IMG/VR virus record: IMGVR_UViG_3300033993_001384
Coordinates: 1-64,000 of that record
Direction: 5' to 3' (one strand)
DNA: 64,000 nt
Source: a virus
Notes under the pieces: generated by a model
What the model was told of the DNA's origin: nothing
The model's database searches: none
Seen by the model: the letters and a program-made list of their open reading frames with translations, nothing else
Shown here: in pieces, positions 55,701 to 64,000 of the stretch
Layout of the letters: each line of letters starts with the position of its first letter
Numbering within the stretch: the first letter of the stretch is position 1
Translations under genes and position numbers: made by a program

Positions 55701-56480
55701 TTAATATATATACCTTTCTTTCAAAGAAAGATTTTTATCTGAGTGTTTTGTTTGAAAATCAAATAGTTTTTGAATATAACCATTTCGTCTTAAAACTTTA
55801 AAAACCAAGTTTTCATTTGAGAATTCCCCCCCATCTTCTAAACCTCGTGTTCTGTATTTTTTAAGTTTATCTTTAAATTTATTTATAATTTCTTTAGAAG
55901 TTTCTAACGAATCCTCATCTTCAGCATCATTGATTACATCATCAATCATTTTCATCCATTCTTCAGATTTAGTTTTAATTAACGTTGTGTCAATCTCAAC
56001 ATCTTCTTTTTTTGGTTTAGTTATCCACTCATCCATCAATACAGAATACTCTCCACTACTAGTGTGAGGTTCACTTGTATCCTGAACATACAATTCAACA
56101 TCATAACCAAAAATGGTAATATTATGTTTATCGTTATATAATGTTTTCTTTAATCGGAATAGTTCTTCGTATAAAGGTAATTCTTTTTCCGAGAATTGTT
56201 TGAAGTCAACAAGAATGTGTAGGTCAATATCAGAATATTTTGACCAATTGTAGTTTGCTAATGAACCGGTCATAACAACATCGTCCACAACCATATCCAC
56301 ACCAATAAAGTCAATAAATTCGTAAGCAATTTGAAGTAGACGTTCTCTAACCTTTGGCACCATGATTTCATCCTGACCTTTTGGGTCGGACATATACCTT
56401 TCATTAGGTAGTTCCCAAATTTTAGGATTTAACTCATCTTGTAGATGAAAGCTAGATAATATACTTTTTAAATTACTCAT
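55701..56480 (-). CDS. Nucleotidyltransferase-superfamily protein
   Basis: ATG 56480 (MSNLKSILSSFHLQDELNP) gives 259 residues. VVMTGSLANYNWSKYSDIDLHILVDF carries the G-S-x(n)-D-x-D core of polymerase-beta-like nucleotidyltransferases, and a third carboxylate is likely in VELYVQD. The C-terminal half is helical. Related proteins occur in T4-like marine phages with no known substrate; MNT-type toxins and RNA-modifying enzymes use the same core. The last residues (KLFDFQTKHSDKNLSLKERY) are basic. Confidence 0.65.
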   Translation of the reverse strand: MSNLKSILSSFHLQDELNPKIWELPNERYMSDPKGQDEIMVPKVRERLLQIAYEFIDFIGVDMVVDDVVMTGSLANYNWSKYSDIDLHILVDFKQFSEKELPLYEELFRLKKTLYNDKHNITIFGYDVELYVQDTSEPHTSSGEYSVLMDEWITKPKKEDVEIDTTLIKTKSEEWMKMIDDVINDAEDEDSLETSKEIINKFKDKLKKYRTRGLEDGGEFSNENLVFKVLRRNGYIQKLFDFQTKHSDKNLSLKERYIY

Positions 56481-57076: not shown

Positions 57077-57107
57077 TTTGTCCATTCAAATATTTGCATT
57101 ACTTTTG
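57077..57107 (+). promoter_or_regulatory. Host-type promoter for the ClpC-like gene
   Basis: TTTG (57077-57080), a 19-bp spacer and TACTTTTG (57100-57107) match the Bacteroidota consensus exactly. Confidence 0.8.
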
Positions 57108-57163: not shown

Positions 57164-59209
57164 ATGACAGAATCTATGGATGGTGGAAGTAACGGTGGAA
57201 ATAAAGCAGTTAAAACTGATTCATCAACTCCCGTATTAGACAATTTTAGTAGAGATTTAATAAAACTTGCCGAAGAGGGTAAACTTGACCCGGTGGTTGG
57301 TAGAGAAAGAGAAATCACTCGAATTGCACAAATCCTTTCACGTAGAAAGAAAAATAACCCAATTATTATTGGTGAACCTGGTTGTGGTAAAACCGCAATT
57401 GTTGAAGGTCTTGCCATTATGATTTATAATGGGGATTGTCCAAGAAACTTAATGGACAAAAGAATTGTGTCATTAGATATGACATCAATTGTTGCGGGAA
57501 CAAAATATCGTGGACAATTTGAAGAAAGAATGAAAGTCATTATCGAAGAACTTCAAAACGAACCAAACATCATTGTATTCATTGACGAAATCCACACAAT
57601 CGTTGGAGCAGGTAATTCATCAGGTTCAATGGACGCGTCGAATATCTTCAAACCAGCACTTGCTCGTGGAGAGATTCAATGTGTTGGGGCAACCACTTTG
57701 GATGAATACAGAAAAAACTTTGAGAAAGACGGAGCGTTAGAAAGACGTTTCCAAAAAGTTGTTGTGGATGCTGCAACCAAAGAAGAGACATTAATCATCC
57801 TTAAAAATGTAAAAGACAAATACGAGAACTACCACAAGGTAACTTATACTGATGAAGTATTGTCTGTATGTGTTGATTTAGCAGACCGTTATATCACAGA
57901 TAGAGAATTCCCGGACAAAGGATTCGACATTATTGATGAGGTTGGAGCGAGAAGTCAGGTAGATGTGAAAATGCCAGATTCAATTGAAAAATTGAAACTT
58001 CAAGCGTCAAACATTAAACAAGAAAAAATTGATGTAGTAAAACAACAACGATACGAGGAGGCGGCAAACCTACGTGATAAAGAAAAACGTATCTTAACCA
58101 AACTTGAAGCTGAAAAGAAAAAGTTTGAAGAAGAACTTCTTACACACAAAAAAGAAATCACTTTGGATTTAGTTTATGAAGTGGTTTCCAATATGACAAA
58201 AATTCCAGTTACCAAATTAAATGCTGATGAAACCAAACTATTGTCAGAGATGGAAACAAATCTATCTGATAAAGTTATTGGACAATCTGAAGCAGTTTCA
58301 AAGATTGCAAAATCAATCCGTAGAAACAGAATTGGTATTAAAGACCCGAACAAACCAATCGGTTCATTCATCTTTTTAGGTTCAACAGGTGTTGGTAAAA
58401 CATACTTGGCAAAACAACTAGCGAAACAAATGTTCGGTAGCGAAGATAATATGATTCGTGTGGATATGTCCGAGTACCAAGAAAAACACACCATTTCAAG
58501 ATTAATTGGAGCACCTCCGGGATACGTTGGATACGATGAAGGTGGACAATTAACCGAACAAGTGAAAAACAAACCTTATTCTGTAATTCTATTTGATGAA
58601 ATTGAGAAAGCAAACAAAGATATCTTTTCAACACTTCTTCAAGTATTAGACGATGGTCACCTTACCGATGGTATGGGGAGAAAGATTAACTTCAAAAATT
58701 GTGTCATCATTATGACATCAAATGTTGGAGCTAAAAAATTACAAGATTTTGGTTCAGGGGTTGGTTTTAAAACAGGAGCTAGTTCTTATGTAGAAGAAGA
58801 ATACAAACGTGAGACACTTAAAAAAGAACTTAAGAAATTCTTTACTCCGGAATTCTTAAACAGAATTGATGAGGTTGTTATCTTTAACTCTTTGGTTAAA
58901 GAAGACGTTAAGAAAATCGTTAAATTGGAATTGGACAAACTATCTAAAAGATTGGTTGGATTGAAATATAACATAACATTTGATGAAAGTATTTTAGAAC
59001 TAATCTCTGAAGTTGGATTTGATGAAACCTACGGGGCAAGACCAATCAAAAGAGCTATCCAAGATAAGATTGAGGATTTTGTATCTGAAGAGATTATCAA
59101 AGGAAATATGGTGGAGGGTGTTCCATACACCCTTGTATCCGTAGAGAAAGAAGTGGTGGTCAAAACAGAACCTACCAAAAAGACAAGAAAGAAAAAAGAG
59201 GACAATTAG
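57164..59209 (+). CDS. ClpC/ClpA-type AAA+ unfoldase lacking the N-domain
   Basis: The 681-residue protein has two AAA+ modules. D1 has Walker A GEPGCGKT (about 70-77) and Walker [15 protein letters not shown]2 has GSTGVGKT (about 406-413) and VILFDEIEK (about 474). A short middle domain with [17 protein letters not shown] is UVR-like, as in ClpC. The chain begins 20-odd residues before D1 ([20 protein letters not shown]), so the usual approximately 150-residue adaptor-binding N-domain is missing. GSGVGFK near residue 530 could serve as the ClpP-docking loop. It should unfold proteins, perhaps feeding host ClpP. A host-type promoter and a terminator flank it. Confidence 0.9.
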
Positions 59210-59220
59210 TCCTCTTTTTT
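59192..59220. terminator. Terminator at the end of the ClpC-like gene
   Basis: AAAAAAGAGGAC-AATTA-GTCCTCTTTTTT overlaps the last codons and sits between convergent genes. Confidence 0.85.
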
Positions 59221-59229
59221 TATATTAAA

Positions 59230-59652
59230 TTATTTTTCAAAACTCATAAGAAACCTTTCAAATTCTTGTAAAATATTAGGTTTTGACAATAAAGGAAACT
59301 TTTTAGGTTCAATTGCTAATCCCATTCCGTGAATTTTATCTTTAGTTCCTACCTGACTAGGTTCTTTAACTTTTTTGGTTTTAACAATAGCATAATCAGG
59401 ATTAAAAGTAACAAATAACGTTAATTTTTTTTCAGGTATATTTTTCATAAATTTTAATTCAGAACCCCCTGTTTCTATCGAATAATTAAGTTTTCTCAAA
59501 ACTGAGTCTAACATTTGAGGTGTTACCTTTTTTTCTTTTTTAGGAGTAGGAGTTGGTACTCCCTGTTCAGAAATTACATTTTTTTTACCTGAGTGCATCT
59601 CAAGGATTCTATTTTTCTCATCTTGAGAAATGTCATTAAATAAATTTTTCAT
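59230..59652 (-). CDS. Small protein with N-terminal propeptide-like module
   Basis: The protein has 140 residues. MKNLFNDISQDEKNRILEMH is nearly the same as the start of the protein at 38342 (MKNLFEISSEEKNRILGLH). Then VISE|QG gives an I-x-E site, followed by a short T-P linker and a compact alpha/beta domain (MLDSVLRKLNYSIETGGSEL, then KLTLFVTFNPDYAIVKTKKV). Cargo function is unknown. A TATTTAT motif (59670-59676) precedes it. Confidence 0.6.
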   Translation of the reverse strand: MKNLFNDISQDEKNRILEMHSGKKNVISEQGVPTPTPKKEKKVTPQMLDSVLRKLNYSIETGGSELKFMKNIPEKKLTLFVTFNPDYAIVKTKKVKEPSQVGTKDKIHGMGLAIEPKKFPLLSKPNILQEFERFLMSFEK

Positions 59653-59682
59653 ATCGTTATCTTTTTATTATAAATATATCGA

Positions 59683-59714
59683 AAAAAAAAGAGAACATTA
59701 AGTCCTCTTTTTTT
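59683..59714 (-). terminator. Terminator after the peptidase gene
   Basis: An imperfect AAAAAAGAGnAC / GTnCTCTTTTTT hairpin with a T run on the minus strand follows the stop at 59716. Confidence 0.65.
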
Positions 59715-59715
59715 A

Positions 59716-60537
59716 TTAAAACAATTTAAAATATTTACTATCAACTTTAAACGGATACTTCTTATATCCTAACCCCTCAATCATCTTTTTACCGGTCTCT
59801 ATTCCACTATAAACATCTTCGACAACAACATACTCATTTGGGGTGTGATAGTTGTAATAACCTATCGCAAAATTGATACAGGAGAAATCAAAGATATTCT
59901 TTAATGCGTAAACATCTGTATATGGGTGAGATTGATAGTCATGTCTACCGTTAAACCCTTCGTTTAATGCTACATCACAAATTTTAAAAAATTCACTATC
60001 TCTTTCAAACAATTGTGTTCCCATACAATATTCACTAACCATAACATTTCCCGGAGCATCAAACTGAATACCATAACCAACATTTAAAAAGAAATTTGGG
60101 TCGGCCTTTTTAGAACCATGACATCCGGTTTCTTCTGATACAAAGAATGCCGCTTTTAAATTTGGTAATTCTTTTAATAATTCCAAACAAGCAAAAACCC
60201 CACATTTATCGTCACCACCAATACCTGTTGGGTGTCCAAAATGATTATACGCTTTTAGGGATGGTTTTAAAACTTTTTGTTCGTTAGGTAATGTTTCCTC
60301 ACGAATAATAATGTTATCCAAAGAGTGGACCGTGTCGGTATGAGCAATCACACAAGGGAAATATTCAATAAATTCATCGGTTTGTTTAACCGCATAAATA
60401 TTATTATGCTCATCCATATTAAATGGAATCCCATTGTCTTCTAACCATTTGATTAGAAACTCAACCATAAGGTCTTCTTGATATGTTTTTGTCGGAACTG
60501 ACAAAACTTCTTTTAATAATTCATAATCTCTATCCAT
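59716..60537 (-). CDS. M20-family peptidase, PepT-like
   Basis: The protein has 273 residues, short for the family, whose members are near 400. Metal and catalytic positions are visible: H66-T-D68 in IAHTDTVHS, D109/D110 in GIGGDDKCGVF, E135-E136 in FVSEETGCHGS, D160 in IQFDAPG, and a C-terminal His in GYYNYHTPNEYV. Loss of about 120 residues probably removes most of the lid/dimerisation domain. PepT-like enzymes cut small peptides. It has its own host-type promoter and an almost leaderless start, and lies between the ClpC-like gene and tmRNA; peptide recycling is inferred. Confidence 0.8.
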   Translation of the reverse strand: MDRDYELLKEVLSVPTKTYQEDLMVEFLIKWLEDNGIPFNMDEHNNIYAVKQTDEFIEYFPCVIAHTDTVHSLDNIIIREETLPNEQKVLKPSLKAYNHFGHPTGIGGDDKCGVFACLELLKELPNLKAAFFVSEETGCHGSKKADPNFFLNVGYGIQFDAPGNVMVSEYCMGTQLFERDSEFFKICDVALNEGFNGRHDYQSHPYTDVYALKNIFDFSCINFAIGYYNYHTPNEYVVVEDVYSGIETGKKMIEGLGYKKYPFKVDSKYFKLF

Positions 60538-60541
60538 TCAA

Positions 60542-60572
60542 CAAAGATAATATAAAATATGACAATATTAAA
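60542..60572 (-). promoter_or_regulatory. Host-type promoter for the peptidase gene, leaderless start
   Basis: On the minus strand TTTA (60572-60569), a 19-bp spacer and TATCTTTG (60549-60542), then TTGA and the ATG at 60537. Transcription should begin at or a few bases from the start codon. Confidence 0.75.
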
Positions 60573-60579
60573 GATTTTA

Positions 60580-61947
60580 TTAGTTTATTCTAATAAACCC
60601 TTCAAATAACTCGGGAGAAACTAAAAAGTTATTAAATTCTTCTTCGGTGTAACTTCTATCTTCCAATCCACCACCATCTTTTTTAAACACTTGAACAACA
60701 ATTTTATTTGTTGCCGGGTCGATTTTTCTAATAAAAAACTCTCTACCTGATTTAGTTTCATATCTGTTGTTAAGATGATAATTTTTAGTAATTCTATTGA
60801 ATATATTAGAGTATTCATAAACATCAATAAATTCATCAGAATCTTCTATTTTTTCAAAGATTTTATCAAGTTGTCTTTCCACAGATTCATTGAATGATTT
60901 TTCATCAAAGCTGACACTATCAATTTCCCACCTATTCTCATCCCATCCGCCAATATTACTATCTCTATGACCAATATTTTTTAACACTTCTCGTAAAGAT
61001 AATGTTTTATCTCCAACGTTGTTATATAAAGATAATAATATACTCACAGTGGTGTAATACTGTCTAAAACAATCTTGTCTAATTAAACCATAATTAGAAA
61101 AATAATCACACACGTCACCCTCAATCCATTCTTTGGCACCATTATTTCTACTAGCATTTTCTTCGTCAGTCCAATCAGTAATAATGTAATCAACCTCATT
61201 TGGAAACATTTTCTCTAATAATTTACTAGATTGTTCTTTGTCTTCATCAGTATCTAATTTAGCGGTAGATGGACTAATAAGTCGAAGTATTTGTTTTAAT
61301 TTAGTTAAATTGTCATCTGAAAATTGATATAAAAGATATCCTTCATTCCATTCATTATATCCGTGGTCATAATCAATAAAATTGGCTCCATCATAATAAG
61401 AATAAACCGATTCCGCAAAAGGAATATCGTATTCGTCAATATCAAATAATTTTAAATAATCCTCCATATCATCAAACTGAAGTTTAACCATACTTTTAGT
61501 TGGATTTTTCTCATTATATATGAACTTCCAAACAAGGTCGTCAGCTCTTTGCATTTGATTAGACGTTACTTTTTCTCCGTTTTTAACATCCAATAGTAAT
61601 TTGTAAACATCTGATTGACCCACAATATTATCAACAACGGATTTAACCTCATCCGGTAAATCGGATTCAAATTCACTTCTATTTAATTCTCTGTGTCTGG
61701 TTGCTTCACCACCATAATATTCTATTTTATTATCTTGTGTTTTATGAATAACTGATGTTTGAATTGGTTCCTTATTTTTATCTATAATAAAATAAGTGTC
61801 CCCCTCTTTAAATTGATTCCATCTGTCTTTATAGTTTTCCGGTGCGTAATAAACAAAGGAATCGTAGTCCAATGGGTCTACAACCATCCAATCTTCATTA
61901 TCTAATAATATATTTTTCATCCCGTGAAAATCCTTTGTGTCAGGCAT
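60580..61947 (-). CDS. Hypothetical protein
   Basis: The protein has 455 residues. The N-terminus (DTKDFHGMKNILLDNEDWMV, then VDPLDYDSFVYYAPENYKDR and YFIIDKNKEPIQTSV) resembles phage proteins that hold small beta-sheet domains. The middle is acidic and helical with YSYYDGANFIDYDHGYNEWN, and the C-terminus has GREFFIRKIDPATNKIVVQV. No catalytic motif could be confirmed. It lies between the peptidase gene and tmRNA on the opposite strand to tmRNA. A TATTTAT motif (61965-61971) precedes its ATG by 17 nt. Confidence 0.6.
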   Translation of the reverse strand: MPDTKDFHGMKNILLDNEDWMVVDPLDYDSFVYYAPENYKDRWNQFKEGDTYFIIDKNKEPIQTSVIHKTQDNKIEYYGGEATRHRELNRSEFESDLPDEVKSVVDNIVGQSDVYKLLLDVKNGEKVTSNQMQRADDLVWKFIYNEKNPTKSMVKLQFDDMEDYLKLFDIDEYDIPFAESVYSYYDGANFIDYDHGYNEWNEGYLLYQFSDDNLTKLKQILRLISPSTAKLDTDEDKEQSSKLLEKMFPNEVDYIITDWTDEENASRNNGAKEWIEGDVCDYFSNYGLIRQDCFRQYYTTVSILLSLYNNVGDKTLSLREVLKNIGHRDSNIGGWDENRWEIDSVSFDEKSFNESVERQLDKIFEKIEDSDEFIDVYEYSNIFNRITKNYHLNNRYETKSGREFFIRKIDPATNKIVVQVFKKDGGGLEDRSYTEEEFNNFLVSPELFEGFIRIN

Positions 61948-61979
61948 TGATATTTATTTTAATAATAAATATAATTTTA

Positions 61980-62010
61980 TTTGGATTTATCCAAAAATGT
62001 ATTATCTTTG
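61980..62010 (+). promoter_or_regulatory. Host-type promoter for tmRNA
   Basis: TTTG (61980-61983), a 19-bp spacer and TATCTTTG (62003-62010), an exact consensus, lie 14 bp before the mature RNA 5' end. Confidence 0.85.
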
Positions 62011-62024
62011 TGGTATCAAAATAT

Positions 62025-62420
62025 GGGGGTAAAATGGTATTGACTGGCATATCTACTTATTTGGGGCACGTAGTGAGAAGTTTCCTATCACTTAAATCTA
62101 TGGATGACAAAATTATAAATGGCAACATTTTAAACAAAATGGCTCTAGTAGGTCTTGTACGTCAAGACGAGCTTGTGAACGTAGCGTAAGCAAACACACA
62201 TTCGGGCCGGTGAGCATTACGCCTAGGAACAGAAGCTTTTACAAAGGTGTGGTACCTATCCGAAAAGGTACAAGTGGAGGATTAGTTCTCAATAAACCGA
62301 ACCACTCAAAAATAAGGGAATTGTGAAATTTCGGATTGTTAGCTTAAACAATGTCCTAAACGTGTAGTCCTGAACACTTAGGGTGAGCAACACGAGGCTT
62401 CGAAGCCTCTACCTCCACCA
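62025..62420 (+). ncRNA. ssrA: Transfer-messenger RNA (tmRNA)
   Basis: The 5' GGGGGUA (62025-62031) pairs with UACCUCC (62410-62416) before the encoded ACCA end (62417-62420), giving the seven-pair acceptor stem. The T-arm is the palindrome GAGGCTTCGAAGCCTC. UAGUA directly before GGU at 62151 matches the tmRNA resume signal. The tag frame GGU to UAA (62151-62189) encodes GLVRQDELVNVA. The stop lies in a stem, GCGUAA with UUACGC (62209-62214), as in helix 5. The RNA works with SmpB to rescue stalled ribosomes. The loop of the T-arm is one base short of canonical, and the tag starts about 127 nt into the RNA. Confidence 0.9.
62151..62189 (+). other. tmRNA proteolysis tag reading frame
   Basis: The codons GGU CUU GUA CGU CAA GAC GAG CUU GUG AAC GUA GCG UAA encode G-L-V-R-Q-D-E-L-V-N-V-A. 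The end V-N-V-A differs from the usual A-L-A-A type end recognised by ClpXP and ClpAP. Confidence 0.75.
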
Positions 62421-62423
62421 AAA

Positions 62424-62455
62424 GAAAAACCCATCATTACGATGGGTTTTTTTAT
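62424..62455 (+). terminator. tmRNA terminator
   Basis: AAAACCCATC-ATTAC-GATGGGTTTT plus TTT lies 5 bp after the CCA end. Confidence 0.9.
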
Positions 62456-62476
62456 TATCAGTTCAATGTTTATTTT

Positions 62477-62809
62477 TTAATCTTGTAATAAATCCTTTTT
62501 ACTCGGATTCAATTTATTCGTTAATTTATCTAATCTTGAATCAACAAATCTATATATTTCGTCAATATGAGTCGTAATATGTCTATTCGTTGTTTCATTT
62601 AATTTATTTGTTCTATCAATCTCACCATCAATACGACGGTTAATCATTTGGTCTACCTCATCTATTCTTAAATAAATATTATTTATTATTTCTTGTTGAG
62701 TTCTAACCAATCCTTTTAATTTTTTGATGTTTGAATACATCCTAACCACAACTATAACCCCCAGTATCCCGAGAACCATAACCATACCTAAAAACATTCC
62801 TATAATCAT
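62477..62809 (-). CDS. Membrane-anchored coiled-coil protein
   Basis: The protein has 110 residues. Residues 1-23 form one transmembrane helix (MIIGMFLGMVMVLGILGVIV); the rest is a hydrophilic coiled coil (QQEIINNIYLRIDEVDQMIN and TTNRHITTHIDEIYRFVDSR) that probably faces the cytoplasm. No lysis or spanin signature is evident. It lies between tmRNA and the SET-domain gene. A role at the inner membrane during infection is inferred. Confidence 0.65.
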   Translation of the reverse strand: MIIGMFLGMVMVLGILGVIVVVRMYSNIKKLKGLVRTQQEIINNIYLRIDEVDQMINRRIDGEIDRTNKLNETTNRHITTHIDEIYRFVDSRLDKLTNKLNPSKKDLLQD

Positions 62810-62854
62810 AATTTCTGTGTTTTATTTATTTGTTTATTTGAACTGATAATTTTA

Positions 62855-63247
62855 TTACATTTTAACTTCTTGGTGACCCCCACCCCATAAATAACCATCA
62901 CCATAATTTGTACAAATTTCTTCACCGGGTTGGATTGTTTGTAAAGCATAAAATTGGAATGCTCTTTTTGTTGGATGATTTCTCCACATAGCATTATTTG
63001 TATCTGAATGATTATATATACACCCATAACCTAATGGAATCACATATTCTTCCCAATTTGGTCCTTGAGGATAACAAAATCTATAATCATCAAGTAGTTT
63101 TGATTTTTCCCATTTTTTTGTGGGTAATTTTACTAAATGACATTCTTCAATTACCTCATCTTTTTGAATAACGTCAATAGCAAAGACCCCCATTCCTTTT
63201 CCTGGTGAGGGTTTAATTTCTATTTTAGTAGGTATTAATAAATTCAT
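62855..63247 (-). CDS. SET-domain protein (putative lysine methyltransferase)
   Basis: The 130-residue protein has the SET core: GKGMGVFAIDVIQKDEVIEE (residues 17-36), GYGCIYNHSDTNNAMW with the N-H-S motif, and the C-terminal GEEICTNYGDGYLW with the G-E-E-x-x-x-x-Y-G motif. It should transfer methyl from SAM to a lysine. Small stand-alone SET proteins of this type are found in phages and bacteria, with substrates largely unknown. It lies 25 bp downstream of smpB on the same strand, so a ribosomal or SmpB substrate is an open idea, not shown. Confidence 0.85.
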   Translation of the reverse strand: MNLLIPTKIEIKPSPGKGMGVFAIDVIQKDEVIEECHLVKLPTKKWEKSKLLDDYRFCYPQGPNWEEYVIPLGYGCIYNHSDTNNAMWRNHPTKRAFQFYALQTIQPGEEICTNYGDGYLWGGGHQEVKM

Positions 63248-63262
63248 AATTTAATTATAATA

Positions 63263-63292
63263 AAAAAAGGAACTATTTCAAGTCCCTTTTCA
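63263..63292 (-). terminator. Weak terminator after smpB
   Basis: An imperfect hairpin AAAAGGGACT / AGTTCCTTTT followed by T residues on the minus strand overlaps the smpB stop; read-through into the SET gene is likely. Confidence 0.45.
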
Positions 63293-63710
63293 TATCTCTT
63301 TCAATATCCCGAGATTTAATACTATCTCGTTTATCGTGGAGTTTTTTTCCTTTGGCGAGAGCAATCTCCATCTTAACCAATCCGGTGTCATTTATGAAGA
63401 CACGATAAGGAATGATGGTTGTCCCGTTTATTAACTCACGTTCCAACTTATTTAGTTCTTTTTTCTTGGCCAATAGTTTTCTATCTTTAACTGTTTCATG
63501 GAATGACCCATAACCATAATCGGAGATGTTCATTCCCTTTATAAACAATTCCCCATCATTAAAATAACAATACCCTTCAGATATGGAGACCTTTCCTTGA
63601 CGGATGGACTTCACCTCTGAACCAACTAATTTGATTCCCACAATTAGGGTTTCTAAGAATGAATACTCAAACTTGGCTTTCTTATTGACTATGTTAATTG
63701 ATTTTTTCAT
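63273..63710 (-). CDS. smpB: SmpB, tmRNA-binding protein
   Basis: ATG 63710 gives 145 residues. An in-frame start at 63770 would put 20 hydrophobic residues (MLQKCDTFFCLYQFLYYLCP) ahead of it and would begin inside the terminator; the promoter at 63715-63745 argues against it. The OB-fold core reads LVGSEVKSIRQGKVSISEGY (28-47). GTTIIPYRVFINDTGLVKME (96-115) and the C-terminal ALAKGKKLHDKRDSIKSRDI (117-136) are diagnostic; HDKR and the basic tail enter the decoding centre. It loads tmRNA onto stalled ribosomes. Its presence with a phage tmRNA is unusual. Confidence 0.93.
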   Translation of the reverse strand: MKKSINIVNKKAKFEYSFLETLIVGIKLVGSEVKSIRQGKVSISEGYCYFNDGELFIKGMNISDYGYGSFHETVKDRKLLAKKKELNKLERELINGTTIIPYRVFINDTGLVKMEIALAKGKKLHDKRDSIKSRDIERDMKRDLK

Positions 63711-63714
63711 AGGA

Positions 63715-63745
63715 CAAAGATAATATAAAAATTGGTATAAACAAA
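63715..63745 (-). promoter_or_regulatory. Host-type promoter for smpB, leaderless start
   Basis: TTTG (63745-63742), a 19-bp spacer and TATCTTTG (63722-63715) on the minus strand, then TCCT and ATG. The -33 element overlaps the upstream terminator. Confidence 0.85.
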
Positions 63746-63927: not shown

Positions 63928-64000
63928 CTCTCTTCAACCTTGCGGGCTGACTCCGGATTCGACTCCGTAGAGGTTTTTCGTAAGAATACATTCTGACTTG
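63924..64000 (-). CDS. Possible C-terminus of an upstream gene (partial)
   Basis: The frame reading SQNVFLRKTSTESNPESARK then VEES and stop (63924-63926) enters from the window edge. The other two frames are also open for over 60 bases here, so frame choice is uncertain. It is followed directly by the small TTG frame. Terminator at 63743-63777 would serve this operon. Confidence 0.3.
   Translation of the reverse strand, partial: SQNVFLRKTSTESNPESARKVEES

Follow-up and report, generated by a model that had tools for sequence, protein, structure and literature searches.

In bacterial trans-translation, transfer-messenger RNA (tmRNA) and SmpB act together with ClpXP, ClpAP or ClpC. A set of phage genes comparable to this system was analyzed in the virus record IMGVR_UViG_3300033993_001384 (86,333 bp), of which the first 64,000 bases form the window, meaning the whole stretch of DNA under analysis. 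Like the bacterial system, the phage locus has a one-piece tmRNA with alanine identity elements, an SmpB above family cut-offs and a ClpC with a ClpP-binding loop. Unlike the bacterial system, all parts are phage-borne, the predicted tag peptide has about 22 amino acids and mostly ends in -VA compared to 8 to 10 amino acids in host tags, ClpC is without its N-terminal domain, and genes for an M20 peptidase and a 455-amino-acid protein adjoin. The conserved neighbourhood suggests a virus-owned route that would clear failed protein synthesis.

tmRNA and SmpB in huge phages were already published (Al-Shayeb 2020, PMC7162821). The main text of that paper uses the words 'Clp' and 'peptidase' 0 times, and its accessible part neither compares tags nor covers gene order or GOLLD RNA. 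The tmRNA of phage Melnitz was proposed to recycle amino acids early in infection (PMC9004378). It is of the two-piece alphaproteobacterial type with a riboswitch, in contrast to the one-piece form found here; 'peptidase' appears 0 times in the accessible text, where the single mention of SmpB is general. ClpP, ClpS, ClpA and ClpX were published from jumbo phages (PMC7824862), where ClpP was proposed to act on host proteins; phage Clp genes are common to both cases. However, in the accessible part of that paper ClpA and ClpX were treated as translocases or assembly chaperones, and tmRNA and SmpB have 0 mentions in the main text. According to the accessible part of a preprint (PMC12363816), CLP_protease is among the domains often found in a clade of huge gut phages, and the main text of a 2026 jumbo phage review contains 0 occurrences of Clp, tmRNA and SmpB (PMC13282480). 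By title or abstract opening, no paper describing the neighbourhood, the tag or the GOLLD link was found among the matches listed, in a search that mostly did not extend to subscription papers.

A preliminary description of the locus had reported a four-part set consisting of an N-domain-less ClpC, a short M20 peptidase, tmRNA and SmpB. All four genes are present in the window, and their identification was upheld by open reading frame (ORF), Pfam, RF00023 and TIGR00086 evidence. However, GOLLD and the 455-amino-acid gene, both usual members in relatives, had been overlooked. The main features are as follows.

57164-59209, plus strand: clpC, a ClpC-type AAA+ unfoldase of 681 amino acids with two AAA+ modules and a VGF loop
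59716-60537, minus strand: M20-type metallopeptidase of 273 amino acids with a PepT-like catalytic domain
60580-61947, minus strand: 455-amino-acid protein, the usual tmRNA neighbour, between M20 and tmRNA and kept there in relatives
62025-62420, plus strand: tmRNA (ssrA), one-piece, with encoded CCA and G3-U70; RF00023 50.3 bits; predicted tag (A)GNILNKMALVGLVRQDELVNVA
63273-63710, minus strand: smpB, 145 amino acids, ATG at 63710
63784-64195, minus strand: conserved 3' domain of GOLLD RNA, on the same strand as smpB and crossing the window end at 64000

The linkage of these genes was examined in related phages. A ClpC search in viral contigs returned 252 relatives, of which the best 80 were examined, and 49 of these had at least 6 kb downstream. 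The order ClpC, M20, 455-amino-acid gene and tmRNA was kept in 49/49 of these loci, and GOLLD was present in 47; the 49 loci represent 13 ClpC clusters at 90% identity. Co-occurrence in relatives, which had been proposed earlier as a check, was thus confirmed for ClpC, M20 and tmRNA, with their order preserved. In a second sample based on M20 (the best 80 of at least 542 matches), 63 loci had ClpC, 55 of them with the 455-amino-acid gene and 54 with tmRNA. Eight of the nine ClpC loci in this sample without tmRNA break off no more than 1.25 kb from M20 on the side where the tmRNA would lie. Furthermore, ClpC, M20 and tmRNA are arranged differently at eight loci, two of them without a recognised 455-amino-acid gene.

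A tree built from 38 phage and 25 cellular ClpC sequences grouped the ClpCs of this gene set (the module) in one clade of 34 rows with support of 100/100. The linkage is therefore mostly inherited, and it persisted through some rearrangements. The positions of two long phage branches (L169 and L173) are unsure. The ClpCs of LR745206 and LR756502 were considered as members of the module clade and rejected, as the tree puts both with a Bacteroidota ClpC (100/96); these two are also without the N-domain, with the D1 motif at 60 and 66.

The window ClpC matched the Pfam families AAA, AAA_lid_9, AAA_2 and ClpB_D2-small, and its residues 12-664 aligned with residues 151-801 of Staphylococcus aureus ClpC (6em8) at an E value of 9.7e-224, the middle region included. 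Walker A and B motifs are present in both AAA+ modules. The N-terminal adaptor-binding domain is missing, since the D1 motif lies at residue 42 compared to about 184 in cellular ClpC, and the median length is 681 amino acids in phage ClpC versus 826 in cellular ClpC. The ClpP-binding [VIL]GF loop was found in 163 of the 181 phage ClpC ORFs, near copies being kept in this count, while 18 could not be read; the window sequence is VGF.

The M20 protein passed the Pfam M20 cut-off narrowly (25.4 versus 24.6 bits). Its AlphaFold2 model, with a mean predicted local distance difference test (pLDDT) score of 88.6, best matched the aminopeptidase PepT structure 3gb0 in the PDB (Z 26.9, root-mean-square deviation 2.5, 243 residues aligned, target of 373). 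Residues H66, D68, D109, E135, E136, D160 and H231 are invariant in 37/37 sequences. However, the protein is below the NCBIfam PepT cut-offs (PRK13381, 25.0 versus 293 bits; PepT-like model, 29.1 versus 274 bits). The lid domain is missing, the protein having 273 amino acids in comparison with 373-416 in the matched PepT structures, over which 243-252 residues were aligned.

SmpB was above its cut-offs, with 154.7 bits for TIGR00086 (cut-off 119.1) and 157.3 bits for NF003843; the profile query carried one extra leading codon (63711-63713). The smpB start at the ATG at 63710, as described earlier, agrees with the sequence. For the 455-amino-acid protein, the model had a pLDDT of 88.6. It gave no PDB structure match (best E 0.36), and the best E in a profile search was 0.67. 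No known family was assigned to it: three stray Pfam matches occurred in 1/42 members each, and PHROG matches were weak, the widest covering 3/42. Against viral models, two matches at E below 0.001 had TM-scores below 0.2.

The window tmRNA scored 50.3 bits against the RF00023 cut-off of 47, which was passed in 38/50 related records. ARAGORN detects no tmRNA in the window, whose T-loop has 6 nucleotides (TTCGAA). A 6-nucleotide T-loop occurs in 13/91 distinct tmRNAs, the window's included, and a 7-nucleotide loop in 78/91. The short loop as the sole cause of the ARAGORN miss was dropped as an explanation, because most relatives with 7-nucleotide loops were missed too. The comparison set was built from 192 loci with a tmRNA profile match, of which 165 were trimmed, 9 were cut by the locus end and 8 did not satisfy the acceptor rule. 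Removal of eight named rows left 84 distinct tmRNAs.

Acceptor pairs 4-7 were paired in 84/84 of these tmRNAs and variable, compared to shuffled-partner means of 62-72, in a count that leans towards structure because the rows were preselected for at least 6 acceptor pairs; the shuffle control was made on these rows as well. G3-U70 was found in 83/84 tmRNAs (86/91 before rows were dropped) and A73 in 87/91, and the window tmRNA has both. G3-U70 and A73 are the alanine identity elements for charging. These RNA features would therefore allow charging with alanine. Given the covarying acceptor stems, the G3-U70 pair and the conserved tag of its relatives, the window tmRNA is taken as real, while its 6-nucleotide T-loop calls for some caution about tmRNA function. 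Among the related tmRNA matches, those of L382, L383, L386, L388, L391, L410 and L415 have a T-arm without the TTCGA loop. The tmRNAs of L008, L011, L020, L137, L348 and L431 share a near-identical tag segment although they differ at the acceptor end and in the 3' part, suggesting that tmRNA pieces may recombine among these phages.

The tag had been given earlier as GLVRQDELVNVA, which is the end of the predicted tag; the full prediction, (A)GNILNKMALVGLVRQDELVNVA, is longer. Predicted phage tags follow GNV[LI][ND]K[ML]xx[VI]GL[VI]R... and have about 22 amino acids. An in-frame tag was read from 84 of the 91 distinct tmRNAs, and 83 of these 84 have 21 or 22 amino acids under the main tag rule, which admits 20 to 22 only. 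With a wider rule of 14 to 30 amino acids, applied to the set without 6-nucleotide T-loops, 73/77 read tags were again 21 or 22 amino acids long. The uncorrected ratio of nonsynonymous to synonymous polymorphism (pN/pS) in the tag frame was 0.56 for 46 sequences of 21 amino acids and 0.44 for 14 sequences of 22 amino acids, whereas the shifted frames gave 0.79 to 1.82.

For host tags, 33 cellular loci were run through ARAGORN, comprising 31 Bacteroidota tmRNA matches and 2 weak matches. Four of the 33 yielded no tag, both weak matches among them. Of the 29 tags read, 28 have 8 to 10 amino acids and end in A[LM]AA, and one is odd. Because their length and end differ from these 28/29 host tags, the phage tags were not copied from the host.

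The unusual tag end raises the explanation that the tag evades host proteolysis. Rescued proteins would then be spared or rerouted, and the phage tmRNA would compete with the host tmRNA. A -VA terminus was found in 69/84 distinct phage tmRNA tags, and A[LM]AA in 0/51 phage tag strings (wider rule) compared to 28/29 host tags, both of which favour evasion. A tRNA-like-domain-only form from phage DS6A inhibits tmRNA in Escherichia coli, according to the accessible parts of two reports (PMC4131195, PMC11915505). However, the phage tag ends remain small and hydrophobic, like degrons, the tmRNA has an unfoldase and often a ClpP as conserved partners, and at two phage loci outside the module the tag is or may be host-like (L365 reads as GNAEYAMAA). 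We consider evasion improbable.

The partners SmpB and ClpP were examined in the long module-bearing records of at least 280 kb (G004, G008, G010, G013, G016, G044, G116 and G148). SmpB is present in 7/8 and ClpP in 6/8 of these records. SmpB was at first considered an optional part, as the ClpC relatives at 80-85% lack it, many of these being fragments, and this was rejected on the long records. There SmpB is usually present along with the other genes, but its position is not fixed. G013 retains the undivided ClpC-M20-455-tmRNA block, with SmpB and GOLLD about 194 kb distant. The window's own record, which is a fragment, gave no ClpP match. The preliminary description had paired phage ClpC with host ClpP; since 6/8 long relatives encode ClpP themselves, a host origin of ClpP is not a necessary assumption.

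The Ser-His-Asp residues are present in the ClpP of relatives, as judged by eye from the sequences and one alignment. Three phage ClpPs are below the PRK14514 cut-off (218-238 bits versus 361), and the Lak ClpP passes two NCBIfam subfamily cut-offs. A role of phage ClpP as a head-maturation protease was rejected, as prohead and head-maturation models gave 58-88 bits and ClpP models far higher scores, and the neighbours at four loci did not look structural by eye.

Linkage was also found outside the main arrangement. In G021 (353 kb; L448 2731-7529), a DnaJ-like gene, ClpP, tmRNA and M20 lie within 4.8 kb on one strand. Of these, ClpP, tmRNA and M20 fit within 3 kb: ClpP ends about 100 bp short of tmRNA, and about 740 bp separate tmRNA from the start of M20, with one small ORF in this interval and two more separating the DnaJ-like gene from ClpP. 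No ClpC was found in the G021 stretches examined, the whole record not having been searched for it. Cellulophaga phage phi40:1 (Callevirus) has an unannotated tmRNA 1.3 kb from M20 with two genes between them, and in the related Cellulophaga phage Calle_1 the tmRNA is annotated near M20. The rough, post hoc odds of random placement were 0.8% for the G021 M20, 0.5% for the G021 ClpP and 5.7% for phi40:1. In Calle_1 (L461 4379-12243), tmRNA is followed by a phosphoribosyltransferase gene and M20, then by an RtcB RNA ligase gene about 4 kb on.

The idea that M20 generally accompanies phage tmRNA was rejected. In M20 loci away from ClpC, an Rfam scan of up to 5 kb on each side found a tmRNA in 2/17, about 4.6 kb off, and one of the two reads as a host-like tag. 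With 2/17, M20 and tmRNA are coupled only in some lineages.

These patterns bear on the explanation that the phage performs ribosome rescue only. Together with the large tRNA set, tmRNA and SmpB would serve to release ribosomes from mRNA cut by nucleases of host or phage, host ClpXP would receive the tagged products, and ClpC and M20 would be separate takeover or scavenging genes. The 22 tRNA genes further along the same record agree with this, as do the -VA ends, which resemble degradable ssrA variants such as LVA. M20 relatives are also common in phages (341/50,697 phage records), and few share SmpB matches. However, ClpC, M20 and tmRNA remain linked even where their order has changed, tag length and end are unlike those of nearly all host tags read, and ClpP, tmRNA and M20 are again close together in G021. 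Rescue only is an unlikely explanation, although one to be taken seriously.

GOLLD RNA was reportedly first described in 2009. RF02032 gave 171.5 bits for the part inside the window and 306.5 bits for the whole domain (L161 13785-14196), with a cut-off of 150. Among 50 virus records searched, GOLLD was found in 39 and tmRNA above cut-off in 38. In the 35 records with both, including G004 with a tmRNA just below cut-off, they are on opposite strands in 35/35 and at most 4 kb apart in 34/35, the nearest at 139 bp. GOLLD also lies 2.1 kb from the Bacteroidota-type ClpC in LR745206 and 5.5 kb from that in LR756502.

These distances would fit tmRNA and GOLLD forming a unit, in which ribosomes or rescued complexes are stored or protected inside a GOLLD cage while ClpC and M20 take no part. 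GOLLD assembles as a 14-mer cage, and ribosome binding in pull-downs is stated in the accessible part of the report (PMC12286853). The short distance to the separately derived ClpC of LR745206 also favours such a unit. However, in G013, GOLLD is 194 kb from tmRNA, while ClpC, M20 and tmRNA remain linked. No tmRNA was found in four records with GOLLD and SmpB (G011, G012, G014 and G015), and no GOLLD in four with tmRNA (G021, G022, G025 and G049). A GOLLD motif scan gave 53 stretches, and the records of the 26 without ClpC in the stretch were searched for tmRNA; none was detected at E 1e-14 in 24/26, 21 of these 24 being under 100 kb. GOLLD is a usual neighbour within this phage group and not everywhere, and a tmRNA-GOLLD unit with bystander ClpC and M20 appears quite improbable.

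In comparison with published GOLLD RNA, as far as the accessible text goes, the conserved 3' domain and an upstream tRNA-like gene are shared; the published setting is usually a tRNA island, whereas tmRNA and ClpC are neighbours here as well (PMC12286853). The tRNA-like gene, read as tRNA-Pro, lies about 540 nucleotides upstream of the conserved domain (L161 14737-14828, minus strand), and ARAGORN gave different or odd anticodons near this position in relatives. A pseudo-tRNA inside GOLLD is known from mycobacteria, according to the accessible part of one report (PMC6582537).

Promoter-like sites were counted in the window and in 20 dinucleotide shuffles of it, with spacers of 15 to 23 compared. 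TTG-N19-TANNTTTG occurs at 12 sites, compared to a shuffle mean of 2.85 and maximum of 6, and 19 was the sole spacer above the shuffle maximum. Three of the sites are next to the genes discussed here.

57078-57107, plus strand: promoter-like TTG-N19-TANNTTTG before clpC, exact match
61981-62010, plus strand: promoter-like TTG-N19-TANNTTTG before tmRNA, exact match
63715-63744, minus strand: promoter-like TTG-N19-TANNTTTG before smpB, exact match, ending 4 nucleotides before the ATG

An exact 19-bp-spacer promoter had been claimed for all four genes. This was found for clpC, tmRNA and smpB, but not for M20, where TATCTTTG is present and TTA replaces TTG (by eye). The smpB transcript would probably be leaderless or nearly so. 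We take the TTG-N19-TANNTTTG type of consensus to be a Bacteroidota promoter, and the spacer-19 sites point to a probable Bacteroidota host. A sigma-70 scan of the window was uninformative (33 found versus 33.0 expected).

Other features of the locus are listed below.

62425-62451, strand undefined: terminator-like hairpin between tmRNA and the next gene, listed on the minus strand; it is symmetric, with a T run also 3' on the plus strand
62855-63247, minus strand: small SET-domain gene between tmRNA and smpB, Pfam 52.6 bits
63745-63776, minus strand: terminator-like hairpin between GOLLD and smpB, 14 pairs plus a T run

The tmRNA-SmpB interval also contains a 110-amino-acid gene. The SET-domain protein was seen at 18 loci as 4 distinct proteins. 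A nucleotidyltransferase-fold protein (phrog_36119) is encoded near clpC at 55701-56477 on the minus strand and is present in each of the ClpC-first rows L099-L160. The tRNA cluster of the same record beyond the window (L162 6724-13442, minus strand) has 22 genes by ARAGORN for 19 amino acids, Trp excepted; the Rfam count is 20.

The reading that best accounts for these results is a phage-run module leading from rescue to degradation, to which we give a probability of roughly 0.5. Its observed basis consists of the genes, the conserved linkage, the RNA features, the tag frame, the ClpP loop and the presence of ClpP in relatives. From linkage and family knowledge, we infer the flow from tag to ClpC and from products to M20, as well as the early timing. 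The phage tmRNA, with phage or host SmpB, would free ribosomes stalled on broken mRNA and add a tag that is specific to the lineage, has about 22 residues and in most cases ends in -VA. The N-domain-less phage ClpC, which retains the VGF loop, may then unfold tagged or other proteins into ClpP, which would be phage-made in most long relatives and otherwise host-made. The M20 peptidase could trim the peptides released by ClpP. The preliminary description had read the locus in a similar way, and the linkage in relatives supports that part of it, whereas its host ClpP and its list of members were revised.

Several observations weigh against this rescue-to-degradation reading. The window tmRNA has a low score and an odd T-loop, and a standard T-arm was not seen in 10/192 related tmRNA matches. 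The 49/49 loci are not 49 events, given shared descent in the main clade, and the independent linkages are few and were found after the fact. L426, with a ClpC fragment at the edge, has enough room for a tmRNA and none was seen. G148 (304 kb) carries the module with neither SmpB nor ClpP, and G044 has no ClpP; such absences in long records are weak, because completeness estimates are not printed for them. In LR756504, large distances separate the best M20 place, tmRNA and SmpB. The G021 tag is longer and ends in AIAA, and no tmRNA was found in the stretches examined around 15/17 M20 loci away from ClpC, including the nearest matches of the G021 M20. ClpC may also serve virion assembly or host takeover instead.

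A more complete form of the rescue-to-degradation reading would be a private protein-salvage line, with a phage-only degron from tmRNA and SmpB, an adaptor-independent ClpC with phage ClpP, M20 returning amino acids and a GOLLD cage in the same rescue process. On the present sequence evidence, this full form is doubtful.

If the rescue-to-degradation reading is true, the virus would supplant ribosome rescue plus the downstream degradation, using its own degron. This would help to explain why phages carry tmRNA and would provide a private degradation tag. The function of GOLLD would become testable through a concrete neighbour. Furthermore, the cultured Cellulophaga phages with tmRNA near M20 make part of the module reading testable in the laboratory.

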